This document shows positions 25,180 to 37,207 of a stretch of DNA of 64,000 nt, in pieces (within the stretch, counting starts at the first letter, position 1; every line of letters begins with the position of its first letter). The position numbers were made by a program, and so were the translations under genes. The notes under the pieces were generated by a model. The model searched no databases and was not told where the DNA came from. It saw nothing but the letters and a program-made list of their open reading frames with translations. Source of the stretch: an uncultured Paracoccaceae bacterium (GTDB lineage Bacteria; Pseudomonadota; Alphaproteobacteria; Rhodobacterales; Rhodobacteraceae); NCBI GenBank assembly GCA_913043905.1, contig CAJWNQ010000004.1:1-64000 (forward strand). The letters are read 5' to 3'.

Positions 25180-25533
25180 TTAGCTTCCACGATATGTAGA
25201 ATACCCAAATGGAGATAGCAGTAAAGGTACGTGATAATGGACATCTTCAGACATACCAAACCTTAGTGGAACAATATTTAAAAACTGTATCCCATCTGAA
25301 ACTTTATTGTATTGTGAAATATATTCACCACAATGAAATACTAATTCATATTCACCTATTTGAAACTCTGAAGCACTTAGTATCTGTTCGTTTGTCCTAC
25401 CATCTGCATTTGTTACAACTTTTCGTAAAAGTTCTGGTTTATCATTTACGATTCGGAAGAGTTCAATCTCTAAACCTTCTGCAGGGCATCCGCGTGCAGT
25501 ATCCAAAACGTGTGTAGTTAAATATCCAGCCAT
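25180..25533 (-). CDS. uraH: 5-hydroxyisourate hydrolase (transthyretin-like)
   Basis: A 117-residue protein with the N-terminal LTTHVLDTARGCPAEGLEIE and the family-defining C-terminal tetrapeptide YRGS. The conserved His of THVLD, the Arg of PLRFG and the His of HYHVPLLLSPFGYSTYRGS form the hydrolase site. It converts the PuuD product to OHCU, which the fused decarboxylase encoded divergently then uses. GGAGAT ribosome site. Shares a 144-base divergent promoter region with puuE. Confidence 0.95.
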   Translation of the reverse strand: MAGYLTTHVLDTARGCPAEGLEIELFRIVNDKPELLRKVVTNADGRTNEQILSASEFQIGEYELVFHCGEYISQYNKVSDGIQFLNIVPLRFGMSEDVHYHVPLLLSPFGYSTYRGS

Positions 25534-25608
25534 AAGATTTATCTCCGTTTAAAATCTATTTTTAATGTGGTTTTTACAATATAGAAGAGTTAATTAAACA
25601 ATACTCCT

Positions 25609-25623
25609 TCAAATATTATTTGA
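25609..25623. promoter_or_regulatory. Possible operator between uraH and puuE
   Basis: TCAAATATTATTTGA is a perfect seven-base dyad around a central T, 55 bases before the puuE start and 76 bases upstream of the uraH start. LysR regulators often bind such interrupted dyads, and a LysR gene is next door. In an AT-rich genome this could be chance. Confidence 0.35.
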
Positions 25624-25677
25624 TACAGATTTTTATTAAATAGTTTATTATAATTCTTAAATAGGAGATCTTTAAGT

Positions 25678-27087
25678 ATGAAACGCTACCCACGAGATAT
25701 GCATGGCCATGGAAGTACTCCGCCCATTGCTAAGTGGCCAAATAATGCCAAAATTGCATTACAAATTGTAGTAAATTACGAAGAGGGCGGGGAAAATAAC
25801 ATCCTCCATGGAGATTCTGCATCAGAAGCATTTTTATCAGAAATTGTAGGTGCCGAAGCATGGCCAAATCAGCGCCATGCAAACATGGAATCTATTTATG
25901 AATATGGTGCGCGTGCTGGTTTCTGGCGCTTACACGAATTATTAAAAAATGTACCAGTAACGGTTTATGGTGTTGCTTCTGCTTTAGCTCGCTCTCCAAA
26001 TCAAGTCCATGCAATGATGGCAGCCGGCTGGGAAATCGCAAGTCATGGCTTAAAATGGATAGATTATAAAAATATTAAACCAGCAGTAGAGGCTGCAGAT
26101 ATGGTAGAAGCAATTCGACTACACACCGAAGTAACAGGTACTGCACCACGTGGCTGGTATACTGGACGCTCTTCTGAAAATACTATTCGCCTTGCTTCTG
26201 AGACTGGTGCCTTTTCATATGTTTCTGATACATATGCTGATGATCTACCTTATTGGATAGAAGTTGAAGGTAATGATCAATTAATGATTCCGTATACATT
26301 AGATGTAAACGATATGCGTTTTGCAACTCCACAAGGCTTTAATTCTGGAACACAGTTTTTAGATTATCTCAAAGATAGTTTTACAGCTTTATATAACGAA
26401 GGTTTAAACGGTGTACCTAAAATGATGTCAATTGGATTACATTGCCGCCTCGTTGGGCGGCCAGGGCGCATTGAATCCATTCGTAAATTTTTAGAGTTTG
26501 TAAAAGAACATGAAGGTGTTTGGTTAGCTACGCGAGAACAAATTGCTGATCATTGGGCTAAGACACACCCTCATGAACGTTATGAGCGGCCTAGTGAAAT
26601 GGATCGCGCTATGTTTATTAAAAAATATGGTGGTATTTTTGAACATTCAGAATGGATTGCTGATGCAGCATTTGATTTAGAATTAGGCTATTCACATGAT
26701 ACGGCCACTGGTTTACATAATGCTCTATCTCGCGTTTTTCGTTCAGCATCACAAAAGCAGCGCTTAGGCGTTCTAACTGCACACCCTGATTTGGCTGGTA
26801 AATTAGCACTAGCAAAACGTTTGACAACAGAAAGCACTTCAGAACAAGCTTCAGCGGGGATGGACAACTTGACCGACAACGAACGTACAACATTTACTAT
26901 CATGAACACTGAATATGTTAAAAAACACAGCTTTCCATTTATTATTGCTGTAAGGGATCACACCAAAGCAAGTATTCTTGATGCATTCACGCGGCGCACA
27001 AATAATGACTGCGACACTGAATTCTTAGAAGCATGCCGCCAAGTCGAGCGAATCGCTAAACTTCGCTTAATGGACTTATTACCATGA
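25678..27087 (+). CDS. puuE: Fused allantoinase (PuuE) and OHCU decarboxylase (UraD)
   Basis: A 469-residue two-domain protein. Residues 1 to about 300 are the polysaccharide-deacetylase-like allantoinase PuuE (YPRDMHGHGSTPPIAKWPNN, VVNYEEGGENN, EIASHGLKWIDY), opening allantoin to allantoate. From about 310 comes the OHCU decarboxylase (FIKKYGGIFEHSEWIAD, LTAHPDLAGKLALA, the E-S-T-S-E-Q-A-S-A-G-M-D stretch, FPFIIAVRDHTKASIL), which makes S-allantoin. The fusion thus joins consecutive steps. Its stop overlaps the allA start by four bases. Confidence 0.93.
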   Translation: MKRYPRDMHGHGSTPPIAKWPNNAKIALQIVVNYEEGGENNILHGDSASEAFLSEIVGAEAWPNQRHANMESIYEYGARAGFWRLHELLKNVPVTVYGVASALARSPNQVHAMMAAGWEIASHGLKWIDYKNIKPAVEAADMVEAIRLHTEVTGTAPRGWYTGRSSENTIRLASETGAFSYVSDTYADDLPYWIEVEGNDQLMIPYTLDVNDMRFATPQGFNSGTQFLDYLKDSFTALYNEGLNGVPKMMSIGLHCRLVGRPGRIESIRKFLEFVKEHEGVWLATREQIADHWAKTHPHERYERPSEMDRAMFIKKYGGIFEHSEWIADAAFDLELGYSHDTATGLHNALSRVFRSASQKQRLGVLTAHPDLAGKLALAKRLTTESTSEQASAGMDNLTDNERTTFTIMNTEYVKKHSFPFIIAVRDHTKASILDAFTRRTNNDCDTEFLEACRQVERIAKLRLMDLLP

Positions 27088-27566
27088 CACGCACAATCGC
27101 TACGCGCCCACTAATACAAAACGAATTTGCAATTTTTGGCGATGTATTAGAAATAACTGGCAAGCCAGATAACATAATTAACCAAGGCATGTGTGATCGG
27201 CATCATGATCTAGCAAATATGGACTTCAGCACTGGGCAAGCAGGTATCAGCCTGTTTAATTCTAAAGCCCGTAGCTTACCCTTTATGTTGGAAATGATGG
27301 AACGTCACCCATGTGGTAGCCAAGCTTTTATTCCAATGCACCAAAATCCATTTCTTATAATTGTTGCTAAGGATAAAGAAGGTAAGCCGGGTACCCCAAT
27401 TGCATTTTTGAGTGGGGCTGGGCAAGCTATCAATTTTCACCGTAATATTTGGCACGGCGTATTATGCCCACTTCATGCGCCAGGTTTATTTGCCGCCATT
27501 GATAGAATTGGAGATGGTACAAACTTAGAAGAACATTGGTTCGAAAAAGCTTGGACCATCATCTAA
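27084..27566 (+). CDS. allA: Ureidoglycolate lyase
   Basis: A 160-residue cupin-like enzyme that splits ureidoglycolate into glyoxylate and urea. Typical features are TRTIATRPLIQNEFAIFGDV, MERHPCGSQAFIPM and the metal/active-site region INFHRNIWHGVLCPL. It begins inside the puuE stop (ATGA). Downstream a short palindrome (27564-27577) overlaps its stop codon and precedes the convergent maeB gene. Confidence 0.92.
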   Translation: MTRTIATRPLIQNEFAIFGDVLEITGKPDNIINQGMCDRHHDLANMDFSTGQAGISLFNSKARSLPFMLEMMERHPCGSQAFIPMHQNPFLIIVAKDKEGKPGTPIAFLSGAGQAINFHRNIWHGVLCPLHAPGLFAAIDRIGDGTNLEEHWFEKAWTII

Positions 27567-27579
27567 AAAGCTTTTTAAA

Positions 27580-29856
27580 CTAGCCATAACTTGATACTGG
27601 CGAGCTAGCCAATGCGGCAATATTTAATAAGCCGCGGACTGTAACCCCTGGTGTTACTATATGCGCACGATTTCCCATTCCCATTAAAATCGGTCCAACC
27701 TCTAGGCCACCAGCAACTGATTTTAAAATGTTACGAGTTGCACCAGCAGCATCTGAATTTGCATAAACCAAGATGTTAGCCTTACCGGTTAAGCGATTAC
27801 CCGGCATCATAGTTTCACGCAAACTTTCGTCTAAAGCAGCATCTGTGTGCATTTCACCTTCATATTCAAAGTCTACTTCTTGAGCGTCCAGTATAGACAA
27901 CGCTTCGCGTGTAACACGCCCAGAATGAGAATCTGCATTTCCAAACTGAGAGCTGGAACATAATGCAAGTTTAGGCTCAATCCCAAAACGACGCGTATGG
28001 CGCGCAGCGGCAATCATAGTATCTGCTATCTGCTGCGCTGTTGGCTCAATATTCACATGGGTATCTGCAATAAATAATGGGCCTTGATCCAAGATCACTA
28101 AGGAGAGTGCACCAACTGGATTAAGATCTTTATTGGCTAAAACTTGTTTAATATAATTTAAATGCCATTGGTACTGACCAAAGGTTCCACAGATCATGCT
28201 GTCTGCTTCACCCCTATGAACCATAACTGCAGCAATAGCGGTCGTATTAGTTCGTAAAATAGCCTTAGCCAAATCAGGTGTAACACTCTTACGTGCCATT
28301 ATTTCATGATATGACTGCCAATAATCGCGATACCGCACATCACTTTCTGGATTAACCAGTTCGAAATCTACGCCTGCTTTTATGGACAGACCTTCACGCT
28401 CAATCCGAGCTTCAATAACTTTTGGGCGACCAATTAATATTGCTGAACCTGATAATTCCTCTGACATTGCCTGAACAGTTCGAAGAACCTTTATTTCTTC
28501 TCCTTCTGGAAAAACAACACGACGGTTATCAGTTTTAGCTGCTTCAAAAATAGGACGCATTGTAATGGCAGAACGGTAAACCTGTGTTTGTAATTGAGTA
28601 TGGTAAGCGTCTAGGTCTAACTTATTTTTTGCCACCCCACTCTTAATTGCAGCCCTAGCGACCGCTACCGCAATTGTTGGTAATAACCGAGGATCAAACG
28701 GTTTTGGAATTAGATACTCTGGGCCAAATGTTAAACGTTCTCCTTGATATGCTGCACCCAATTCAGCACTCGCTGGTTCGCGAGCTAGGCCAGCGATCGC
28801 TTCTACACATGCTACTTTCATTTCGTCATTAATTGTTGTTGCACCTGCATCCAATGCCCCTCGAAATATAAATGGGAAACATAACACATTGTTCACTTGA
28901 TTTGGATAATCAGAGCGGCCAGTGGCAATCAAAGCATCTGGAGATGCTTCACGAGCATCTTCTGGCATTATCTCTGGTATAGGGTTTGCTAATGCAAAAA
29001 TAATAGGATGTGAGGCCATTTTTTTAACCATTTCTTGCGTCAATAAACCAGGACCCGATACGCCTAAGAACAAGTCAGCTCCTTCCATTGCCTCCATGGT
29101 GGTACGCATTGTGGTATTTTTAGCAAACTCAGATTTTTCAGTATTTAAATCATTACGCTGAGTATGAACAACACCCTTACTATCTATCATTGTGATGTTT
29201 TCTTTTTTAGCACCCATCACCATCATCATCTTCAAACAAGCGATACCTGCAGCACCTGCCCCTAAAGCAACAATTTTAATGTCTACAAAAGATTTTTTAG
29301 CAACAAGCAATGCGTTTGATGCAGCTGCTGCAGCAACAATAGCTGTTCCATGTTGATCATCGTGAAATACTGGAATGCCCATACGTTCGCGGCAAATACG
29401 TTCTACAATAAAACAATCTGGTGCCTTAATATCTTCTAGATTTACTGCACCAAATGTTGGCTCCAAACTACATACGATCTCTGCTAATTTCTCTGGATCT
29501 GTTTCATTGACTTCGATATCAAAGCAGTCAATACCAGCGAACTTTTTAAATAAAACTGCCTTTCCCTCCATTACAGGCTTTGAGGCTAAGGCACCAATAT
29601 TCCCCAAACCCAATACGGCTGTTCCATTTGATATAACAGCTACCAGATTACCACGAGCAGTATAACGTTTTGCATCTTCTGGGTTTTTTTCAATCTCTAA
29701 ACAAGCGTCAGCCACACCAGGTGAATATGCACGGCTCAAATCGCGGCCTGTTGCCATTGGCTTTGTTGCTCGGATTTCTAATTTACCAGGGCGCGGGAAC
29801 TCATGATAATCCAAGGCAGCTTGTTTTTCGATCGATTTTTTTGTGTCTTTAGTCAA
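27580..29856 (-). CDS. maeB: NADP-dependent malic enzyme with phosphotransacetylase-like domain
   Basis: A 758-residue MaeB. Residues 1 to about 430 are the malic enzyme ([29 protein letters not shown]-type region as [18 protein letters not shown](P) fold [25 protein letters not shown]); about 430-758 form the catalytically degenerate phosphotransacetylase domain ([29 protein letters not shown]) that binds acetyl-CoA as a regulator. Converts malate to pyruvate, a plausible outlet for C4 acids formed from glyoxylate. Confidence 0.95.
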
Positions 29857-30003: not shown

Positions 30004-30164
30004 TTAAACTTGGTTTGCAACACCACGCTCAATTGCTAACTCAACAAAGCTCGAAGCAACTGCAAGATCTTGCAAGCCAACACCAGCTCCATAGAACATG
30101 CTTGGCGAATTTTTTCTGGTATATTCGTTGGGCCGGGAATAAAGACTGGATTTTGAAAGCTCAT
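30004..30164 (-). pseudogene. Deletion scar: bhcA 5' end joined to bhcD 3' end
   Basis: Reading from ATG 30164 with an AGGGGA ribosome site, the first 25 codons give SFQNPVFIPGPTNIPEKIRQ, the N-terminus of class V aspartate(serine)-glyoxylate aminotransferases such as BhcA. The match then stops and the frame ends at 30036. In a second frame from 30099 the sequence reads FYGAGVGLQDLAVASSFVEL and on to a stop at 30004, the C-terminus of the ornithine-cyclodeaminase family that includes iminosuccinate reductase BhcD. Join near 30088-30100. The middle (rest of bhcA, bhcB, bhcC, most of bhcD) is gone. An IclR gene of bhcR type flanks it. Confidence 0.8.
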
Positions 30165-30331
30165 TAGTTTTCCCCTAGAATTCTCATTACCATTATAAAA
30201 TATTGTTGTTTGCAGAACAATTTTTTTGAAAATTAATATTTTTTATTATTTTTGTAAAAAAATACTGTATTGTCAGTAAGTTACTTTTTTCATAAGGTGA
30301 AAGAGATTTTCATTTATTATTGGAAAACCTT

Positions 30332-31165
30332 ATGAATTTAAAAGATGATACTAATAAACTGAATAAAAGAGCGCGTGGGCGGCCTCGCGCCTTCAACGAA
30401 AAAACTGAACAAAACACAATAAAATCATTAGACCGTGCACTCACTGTTTTAACTAAGCTTTCAAAAAATCAAAACATAACCCTAACAGATTTATCACAAA
30501 AACTTGGAGAGTCCCCATCAACTATTTACCGAGTACTTACAACAATGGCTCAACACCAAATTGTTGAATGTGATGATAATTCCCAAACCTGGCATATTGG
30601 ATCAGGTGCATTTCAAATTGGATCATCATTTCTTCACCGTACAAGTTTGATAGAAACAAGTCGCCCATTTTTACGCAGTTTAATGGAAGAAACTGGAGAA
30701 ACTGCAAACCTTGGAATTGAAAAAGACGGTAATGTTTTATTTTTAAGTCAAGTGGAAACCTACGCACCAATCCGTGCATTTTTTGCTCCTGGAACGCTTT
30801 CCCCACTACATGCATCCGGCATAGGAAAAGCCCTATTGGCGCAATATAGTGATACAAAATTAGAGCAATTTATAAAAACAGATCTAGAGTCTTTTACACC
30901 CCAAACCAAAGCAACATTAAAGCTTTTAAAAAGTGATATACAAATCACTTTAGCTCGAGGCTATGCCGTAGATGATCAAGAACGTAATTTGGGAATGCGA
31001 TGTATTGCTGCTCCAATAAAAAATGCATTTGGTGAAGTTATTGCTGGTATTTCTGTATCCGGCCCAACCAGTCGGGTAGCTAGCAACAAAGTCCAGACAT
31101 TTGCAAAATCTGTAATTAATGCTGCGTTTAACATATCAGCAGCTATGGGTGCTAATATTGAATAG
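30332..31165 (+). CDS. bhcR: IclR-family regulator, probable BhcR orphaned from its operon
   Basis: About 277 residues: a basic N-terminus (NKRARGRPRAFNEK), an IclR winged helix (IKSLDRALTVLTKLSKNQNI ... SPSTIYRVLTTMAQHQIVE, residues 30-90) and the effector domain (LHASGIGKALLAQYS, GYAVDDQERNLGMRCIAAPI). It is divergent from the bhcA start preserved in the scar, the arrangement known for bhcR, whose product senses glyoxylate. I take ATG 30332; a TTG four codons upstream is possible. It may now regulate other glyoxylate or purine genes such as allE. Confidence 0.8.
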   Translation: MNLKDDTNKLNKRARGRPRAFNEKTEQNTIKSLDRALTVLTKLSKNQNITLTDLSQKLGESPSTIYRVLTTMAQHQIVECDDNSQTWHIGSGAFQIGSSFLHRTSLIETSRPFLRSLMEETGETANLGIEKDGNVLFLSQVETYAPIRAFFAPGTLSPLHASGIGKALLAQYSDTKLEQFIKTDLESFTPQTKATLKLLKSDIQITLARGYAVDDQERNLGMRCIAAPIKNAFGEVIAGISVSGPTSRVASNKVQTFAKSVINAAFNISAAMGANIE

Positions 31166-31167
31166 CT

Positions 31168-32001
31168 CTATAGCCCTGATAATCTTAGTTTCATGTGCCG
31201 GTTAACATCTTTGTATAATAGATAACGGAATGCATTTGATCCGCCAGCGTAACAAGCTTGTGGGCAAAAAGCGCGTAGCCACATATAATCTCCACCCTCA
31301 ACCTCTACCCAGTCTTGATTTAAGCGATAAACTGCTTTTCCCTCAAGCACGTAAAGTCCGTGCTCCATAACATGCGTTTCACAAAACGGAATTACCGCAC
31401 CAGGCTGTAATGTAACTATAGTAACATGCATATCATGACGTAAATCTGATGGCTCCACAAACCGTGTTGTGGTCCATTTGCCCTCAGTATTAGGCATCAC
31501 AGTTGGCTCAACATTATTCTCATTGGCAATAATAGGATCTGGCGCATTTAAACCATCAACTGCTTCATAAGCTTTTCGTATCCAGTGAAATTTAGCTAAA
31601 TTATTTGAAACGTTATGAATGCTCCACTTTAAGCCAGCGGGTAAATAGGCATACCCACCCTCTTTAAGGATATGCGTATTACCGCCAAAACTTATACTTA
31701 CAGATCCCTCAACAATAAATAGAACACCTTGAGCCTGAGGGTCTAGCTCAGGTCTATCACTCCCACCACCTGGCTGAACCTCCATAATATATTGCGAAAA
31801 AGTTTCTGCAAACCCACTAAGGGGGCGGGCAATAACCCATAGCCGTGTTTTCTCCCAAAATGGTAAAAAGCTCGTCACAATATCACGCATTGTACCTTTT
31901 GGAATGACGGCATAAGCATCAGTAAAAACTGCACGGTCAGTCAACAATGTATTTTGATCTGGGTGGCCACCTAGTTCGGAGAAATACTTATTTTTAGCCA
32001 T
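31168..32001 (-). CDS. allE: (S)-ureidoglycine aminohydrolase
   Basis: A 277-residue bicupin. Two cupin domains are visible (LFIVEGSVSISFGGNTHILKEGG in the first; PFCETHVMEHGLYVLEGKAVY in the second, whose E-T-H and E-H residues bind Mn). It converts ureidoglycine, the allantoate amidohydrolase product, to ureidoglycolate for AllA. It ends two bases from the convergent IclR stop. No allantoate hydrolase gene is in this window, so that step must be elsewhere. Confidence 0.92.
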   Translation of the reverse strand: MAKNKYFSELGGHPDQNTLLTDRAVFTDAYAVIPKGTMRDIVTSFLPFWEKTRLWVIARPLSGFAETFSQYIMEVQPGGGSDRPELDPQAQGVLFIVEGSVSISFGGNTHILKEGGYAYLPAGLKWSIHNVSNNLAKFHWIRKAYEAVDGLNAPDPIIANENNVEPTVMPNTEGKWTTTRFVEPSDLRHDMHVTIVTLQPGAVIPFCETHVMEHGLYVLEGKAVYRLNQDWVEVEGGDYMWLRAFCPQACYAGGSNAFRYLLYKDVNRHMKLRLSGL

Positions 32002-36907: not shown

Positions 36908-37207
36908 GATAAAACATATAGTGAACATTGAAACAGATTTGCAAAACAGAACCAACGCGAACACCTATCAAAAACTATTGATACGATTAATCGTAGGTTT
37001 GGCTCCAGCACAGTAACCTACGGGATTAATAAAGCACATGATGGCTTCTTTGAGAGGGGGTAATAATTATTTATTTTTCCTCTATAAAGTCAATTATGAA
37101 AAACGCAAAAAGGTGGCGTGTATTTGGTTTTCATATAGCTTCAAATTACTACATTTACGTCGGTTTCAAGATAGATAACAAAAGTAATATAATTAATTAA
37201 TTGCAGC
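36908..37207. other. Intergenic region before the DMT transporter
   Basis: No gene supported. A frame on the minus strand crosses this region but its composition is not protein-like. The 100 bases before 37208 are AT-rich and should hold the transporter promoter; no ribosome site better than TTGCAGC is visible before the ATG. Confidence 0.4.

Follow-up and report, generated by a model that had tools for sequence, protein, structure and literature searches.

What is the short stretch at 30004-30164, lying between a malic enzyme gene and a divergent gene for an IclR-type regulator, and what is left there for that regulator to control? Throughout, 'the window' denotes the whole stretch of DNA analysed, 64,000 nucleotides from an uncultured Paracoccaceae bacterium. 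The answer argued for here, with a probability of about 0.94, is that 30004-30164 is a scar left when the beta-hydroxyaspartate cycle was lost completely, one deletion of 4198 bp having removed the bhcABCD operon. The cycle was reportedly described in a 2019 paper. Passages of PMC11323563 present it as a carbon-neutral assimilation of glycolate-derived glyoxylate in ubiquitous Alpha- and Gammaproteobacteria.

Bacterial genomes were scanned with the BhcR protein, and the best 80 of 232 matching loci were retained (L031-L110). Among these, the closest is L031, from the uncultured Amylibacter FRAM18_bin019, whose sequence is the same as that of genome G002 and which is called the sister hereafter. 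Translation of the minus strand of the window from 30164 to 30004 gives MSFQNPVFIPGPTNIPEKIRQACSM in one frame and ...FYGAGVGLQDLAVASSFVELAIERGVANQV in another, and comparison with the sister defines the following features.

30090-30164, minus strand: bhcA remnant, start codon and first 25 codons of the L-aspartate--glyoxylate aminotransferase gene
30004-30098, minus strand: bhcD remnant, last ~31 codons of the iminosuccinate reductase gene, with a new stop two codons ahead of the old one
30090-30098: deletion joint of 9 bp, where the bhcA and bhcD sides of L031 agree at 8/9 positions
30036-30164, stop included, minus strand: 42-codon open reading frame ascribed to the deletion, 25 bhcA codons plus 17 out of frame

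The first remnant shows 92% amino acid identity to residues 1-25 of L031 bhcA (6 of 75 bases differ), its ATG is preceded by a ribosome-site-like AGGGG (read by eye), and the NCBI BhcA model NF045640 detects the scar at 30081-30164 (34.2 bits, E 1.7e-8, model positions 1-28). The second is 84% identical in amino acids to the C-terminus of L031 bhcD over 32 residues, with differences at 8 of the 99 bases compared and a change of GAG to TAA at its end. The initial annotation had recognized just these two fragments, 25 N-terminal codons of BhcA with a ribosome site and ~31 C-terminal codons of BhcD in another frame; both ends were recovered in separate frames, and, as to its concern that unrelated families might match better, the pieces map to the start of bhcA and the end of bhcD in L031. 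Each piece was also used as a separate tblastn query against 109 loci, the window's own locus being left out. The N-terminal piece matches 84 of them (E 8e-13 to 2e-6), at most 400 bases from the BhcR match in 83 of the 84, and the C-terminal piece matches 54 of the 109 (E 6e-12 to 0.26), many loci stopping short of bhcD, with its best match (84%) within the bhcD of L031.

Fragments of 25 and ~31 codons are short and their parent families have paralogues, so that chance resemblance or membership of other families has to be weighed; yet the two match bhcA and bhcD in the right order and on the right strand beside bhcR, and their DNA is collinear with the ends of the sister's operon to the base. 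A chance or paralogous match was rejected on this collinearity, on the loci found by tblastn and on the NF045640 match, and is given practically no weight.

The sister provides the intact counterpart of the scar. Window and L031 are collinear on both sides of it, their identity being 94.5% in one flank (6.9 kb) and 93.4% in the other (3.6 kb), and the gap that separates the two collinear blocks in L031 holds bhcA, bhcB, bhcC and bhcD, all four scoring over their equivalog cut-offs. The synteny predicted for relatives is thus found in L031/G002, which carries bhcABCD in exactly the window's gap, beside bhcR. The scar pieces map to the two ends of L031 bhcA-bhcD, and the intervening 4198 bp, as calculated from the coordinate offset, are not in the window; since 4198 is not a multiple of three, the frame changes at the scar. 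A single deletion of about 3-4 kb had been anticipated, and the comparison upholds the single event while enlarging it to 4198 bp.

At the joint, the blocks that match L031 overlap by 9 bp (30090-30098). A match this good across the joint occurs in 1457 of 1,071,600 bhcA-bhcD joints tested in L031 (0.14%), and the joint fits a putative recombination at a short repeat. A second scar of this type is present at 36941-36948, where L031 has 1092 extra bases and the joint falls in an 8-bp near-repeat (7/8). These extra bases represent most of a gene for a polymerase of the impB/mucB/samB family (PF00817, 124.9 bits), of which the window retains only the last 41 codons, 93% identical, at 36938-37060. 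It seems that short-repeat deletions at sites 7 kb from each other have cost the lineage of the window two genes or operons; for 36941-36948, loss as the direction of change is suggested solely by the remnant.

The following course of events is proposed. The ancestor would have had bhcABCD divergent from bhcR, and two 9-bp near-repeats, one around codons 23-25 of bhcA and the other near the end of bhcD, would have recombined. Comparison with the sister shows that the 4198 bp lost comprised the entire bhcB and bhcC genes and almost all of bhcA and bhcD. Still in place are the promoter region, the two presumed BhcR sites and bhcR, so that the regulator now faces a 42-codon nonsense reading frame. 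Probably the operon could be lost because a small genome was selected for, or because the glyoxylate bypass made it redundant.

A collapsed assembly could give the same picture, if the operon were present and the assembler had joined its two ends, and the genome of the window (G000) is indeed a draft in 83 contigs. A near-repeat of 9 bp is far below the k-mers used by assemblers. Against such an artefact, those 9 bp, with one mismatch, are all that the two ends share, no other contig has a match to the operon DNA longer than 31 bases, and both flanks are equally diverged from the sister, without sign of a chimaera. Collapse is considered improbable, and true loss of the operon is retained.

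The rest of the assembly was searched as well; it is a draft of 2.02 Mb, 92.65% complete, and the sole genome of its species in the comparison. Profile searches of it gave no candidate for BhcC, none for BhcB over the cut-off of 550 (best 234 bits, with similar paralogues in relatives) and none for BhcA over the cut-off of 650, with only a 268-bit paralogue and the scar itself being detected. BhcD was searched as DNA within the whole-operon query, a sequence of 4191 bases that finds one 31-base match in G000 (E 6e-4) and matches in full in G002. In this draft assembly the four enzymes of a beta-hydroxyaspartate cycle operon, BhcA to BhcD, were thus not found; bhcA and bhcD are there as end fragments. 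The BhcA-like aminotransferase paralogue is open in G000 (268 bits, G000:C1:93315-94478), and that of the sister (G002:C3:547504-548661) has two in-frame stops.

Around the scar, the regulator, its presumed sites and the neighbouring genes are arranged as follows.

25180-27566, both strands: purine/ureide genes and glyoxylate source, encoding hydroxyisourate hydrolase (minus), a PuuE-UraD fusion (plus) and ureidoglycolate lyase (plus)
27580-29856, minus strand: malic enzyme, flanking the scar; L031 and HTCC2255 have it at the corresponding position
30217-30234: first conserved box (box 1) between bhcA and bhcR (CAATTTTTTTGAAAA), presumed to be the BhcR site on the bhcA side
30287-30312: conserved box 2 (TTTTCATA...TGAA......TTTCA) at the bhcR promoter, presumed autoregulatory operator
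30332-31165, plus strand: bhcR, intact IclR-type regulator of the lost operon, divergent from the scar
31168-32001, minus strand: (S)-ureidoglycine aminohydrolase, flank on the bhcR side

The bhcR product reaches 381.9 bits against the NCBI BhcR equivalog NF045644 (cut-off 350) over positions 4-267 of 267, which bears out the claim of an intact BhcR-type gene divergent from the scar, and it is 95% identical to the BhcR of L031. With positions located by alignment to E. coli IclR 2o99 and counted by hand, eight of the nine ligand-site residues of Paracoccus denitrificans BhcR (T143, A146, S154, M220, G160, I161, D212, S239 and S241) are the same in the window; the exception is position 143 (IclR numbering), where the window has Pro instead of Thr, as does L031. 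Glyoxylate-producing purine genes had likewise been expected beside the scar, and ureide genes were identified on both sides, the ureidoglycolate lyase (27084-27566) scoring 249.3 bits, slightly below its cut-off of 260. Of the 49 loci that have the full operon and at least 7 kb to either side of bhcR (from the best 80 of 232), 29 also carry one or more ureide genes, and the cycle may regularly draw glyoxylate from purine breakdown.

The two boxes recur upstream of bhcR. In 81 such regions, those of the window and HTCC2255 included, TTTTTYGA is found in 55, TTTTCATA in 42 and both in 33 (shuffled means 2.2, 1.3 and 0.07, respectively), and 28 of the 33 regions with both have them 65 or 66 bp apart. 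In HTCC2255 the distance from box 1 to box 2 equals that of the window (70 bp between the start points used). Searched without mismatch, the 26-base box 2 has one site in each of G000, G002, G030 (HTCC2255) and G004, always at bhcR, with no second perfect operator in any of these four genomes; in G019, the fifth genome searched, both bhcR sites have two mismatches to it. Sites with two mismatches away from bhcR number 2 in G000, 1 in G002, 7 in G030, 3 in G019 and 1 in G004, compared with 1, 4, 2, 1 and 0 for a reversed-pattern control. The two weak sites of G000 fall inside genes on the other strand, those for glyceraldehyde-3-phosphate dehydrogenase and a di-haem cytochrome c peroxidase, and the excess in HTCC2255 would leave room for other BhcR targets there. 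According to the text of PMC11323563, the BhcR of P. denitrificans is an activator of the operon that binds its promoter region, less so in vitro in the presence of glyoxylate, and is also proposed to control its own gene. Because of this proposal, and because there is no second perfect operator, the orphan BhcR may now control only its own gene.

Does the window stand alone? Rhodobacterales bacterium HTCC2255 (genome G030, identical to locus L032 over a 5-kb stretch) shares with the window the order of malic enzyme, BhcR and ureide genes; none of BhcA, BhcB and BhcC reaches its cut-off there, and a search with the operon DNA gives no match. The gap between its malic enzyme gene and bhcR, of which 354 bases were tested, shows no bhcA or bhcD remnant: the best 30-base match to the bhc ends (19/30), tried as a candidate, was rejected as lying within the range of 20 shuffles (17-20). 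Between bhcR and the ureidoglycine gene of HTCC2255 (L032 8833-14343) stand a convergent gene for a GlcD-like FAD oxidase (275.6 bits, under the GlcD cut-off), a gene for a LysR-type regulator and TctC/TctA transporter genes. The window groups with G002, and HTCC2255 lies outside, in each of three quick trees: BhcR (19 rows, SH-aLRT 87), ureidoglycine aminohydrolase (14 rows, 98) and malic enzyme (8 rows, 95). Since the sister kept the operon and HTCC2255 branches outside the pair, the window and HTCC2255 look like two separate losses, unless the sister regained the operon. The loss that the initial annotation had seen in this genome stands, although it is not unique, HTCC2255 also being without the operon beside BhcR.

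In the genus, BhcR is over cut-off in 13 of 33 genomes; BhcC is over cut-off in 10 of these 13, split over two contigs in one (G023) and missing in two (G000 and G030). Among the best 80 of 232 loci, 54 extend for at least 7 kb to either side of bhcR, and in 49 of these the operon adjoins it. The five long-flank loci without the operon there are HTCC2255; L059 and L086, which have BhcC elsewhere in the genome; and L104 and L108, which have no BhcC over cut-off and whose BhcR-like proteins are the two oddest of 92; L110, a locus with a short flank, also gave no BhcC over cut-off. In L104 (Luteovulum azotoformans), whose genome is without BhcC, the BhcR-like gene lies beside ureide genes and its product has the most changes at conserved columns among the 92 sequences (10), so that it is possibly a purine regulator of its own.

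With HTCC2255 lacking the operon and branching outside the pair, it might be argued that the sister gained the operon at this locus and that the window lost nothing. The window, however, has both operon ends, broken in frame, an operon beside BhcR is the rule in the genus and in the 49 of 54 long-flank loci, and a gain would need insertion at exactly the same coordinates. Such a gain is considered very improbable, and deletion from the window's lineage remains the preferred reading.

Whether what is left is decaying was examined through substitutions. In the remnants, an excess of amino acid changes is expected if they are dead; 6 non-synonymous and 7 synonymous codon changes were counted, one of the six at the joint itself, versus 138 and 362 in ten flanking genes, an excess that is not significant (p = 0.21). 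In BhcR, 8 amino acid changes fall on the window branch versus 1 on the sister branch (4 unresolved), while nine other polarised genes together have 34 versus 39 (Fisher p = 0.03 against BhcR, uncorrected); from this set the SDR gene was left out, HTCC2255 being unmatched in the stretch used, and the LysR gene was compared at 162 of 306 codons only. Relaxed selection special to BhcR was rejected, because ureidoglycolate lyase shows a like skew (7 window-branch changes versus 1). None of the private changes of the window BhcR is at a column at least 95% conserved among the 92 sequences, and its dN/dS, 0.155 to the sister and 0.126 to HTCC2255, falls inside the spread of its neighbours (0.044-0.195 and 0.028-0.234, respectively). 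The evidence on decay of the orphan BhcR is mixed.

The glyoxylate metabolism that is left gives a context for the loss. The window genome encodes malate synthase G (1057.6 bits) and isocitrate lyase (1041.9 bits, NF005074), both over cut-off, and a glcDEF cluster in which GlcF is over cut-off (455.7 bits); GlcD and GlcE are under theirs with glycolate oxidase subunits as best match, GlcD being under cut-off in 37 of 37 relatives too. No glyoxylate carboligase over cut-off was found in the genome. Judged by this gene content, the species presumably still makes glyoxylate, with glycolate, ureidoglycolate and isocitrate as sources, and most likely turns it into malate through malate synthase G. 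With the glyoxylate bypass at hand, the cycle may plausibly have become dispensable, yet the sister, equipped with the same isocitrate lyase and malate synthase, keeps it. In passages of a 2025 survey (PMC12661815), the TCR cluster, which includes HTCC2255 and is Amylibacter in GTDB, is stated to encode the glyoxylate pathway, which among the other Roseobacter genera is confined to a few Paracoccus species; signs of genome streamlining are reported for five of the seven species in the cluster. With 2.02 Mb, and 39% G+C in the window, the window genome resembles this cluster. A tentative and rather doubtful extension would be that the cycle was lost at least twice in small-genome ocean bacteria and the orphan BhcR kept for a second, undescribed job, such as glyoxylate sensing for purine or glycolate genes.

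Gene loss is an ordinary event of a known kind, and this is an unusually clean record of one. Supplements aside, no account of a loss of the cycle in this group was found in the parts of the open literature on the cycle, BhcR, HTCC2255 and Amylibacter that were available; the main text of a comparison of HTCC2255 with a close species (PMC10203303), as far as accessible, contains neither glyoxylate nor glycolate. What is new is that HTCC2255 also keeps BhcR and both boxes without bhcABCD, apparently through an independent second loss. The enzymes lost are the route from glyoxylate, for example from algal glycolate, to cell carbon. The sister species form a before/after pair, a natural comparison for asking what the cycle is worth in the sea and what becomes of a dedicated regulator once its operon vanishes. 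The locus also cautions against taking BhcR by itself as a sign that the pathway is present.

Compared with known systems, the locus shares with bhcABCD/BhcR of P. denitrificans, as presented in the text of PMC11323563, the regulator family, the divergent layout and the first and last genes, and differs in having no enzymes, with the operon ends, the promoter region and the regulator left. HTCC2255 resembles the window in its orphan bhcR, with both boxes at the same spacing, malic-enzyme and ureide neighbours and no bhcA, bhcB or bhcC, but has no detectable trace of bhcA or bhcD by bhcR and 5.5 kb of other genes before the ureidoglycine gene. The FRAM18_bin019 operon (L031/G002) is the nearest counterpart, having the same locus and flanking genes at ~94% DNA identity, and differs by the 4198 bp that are absent from the window.
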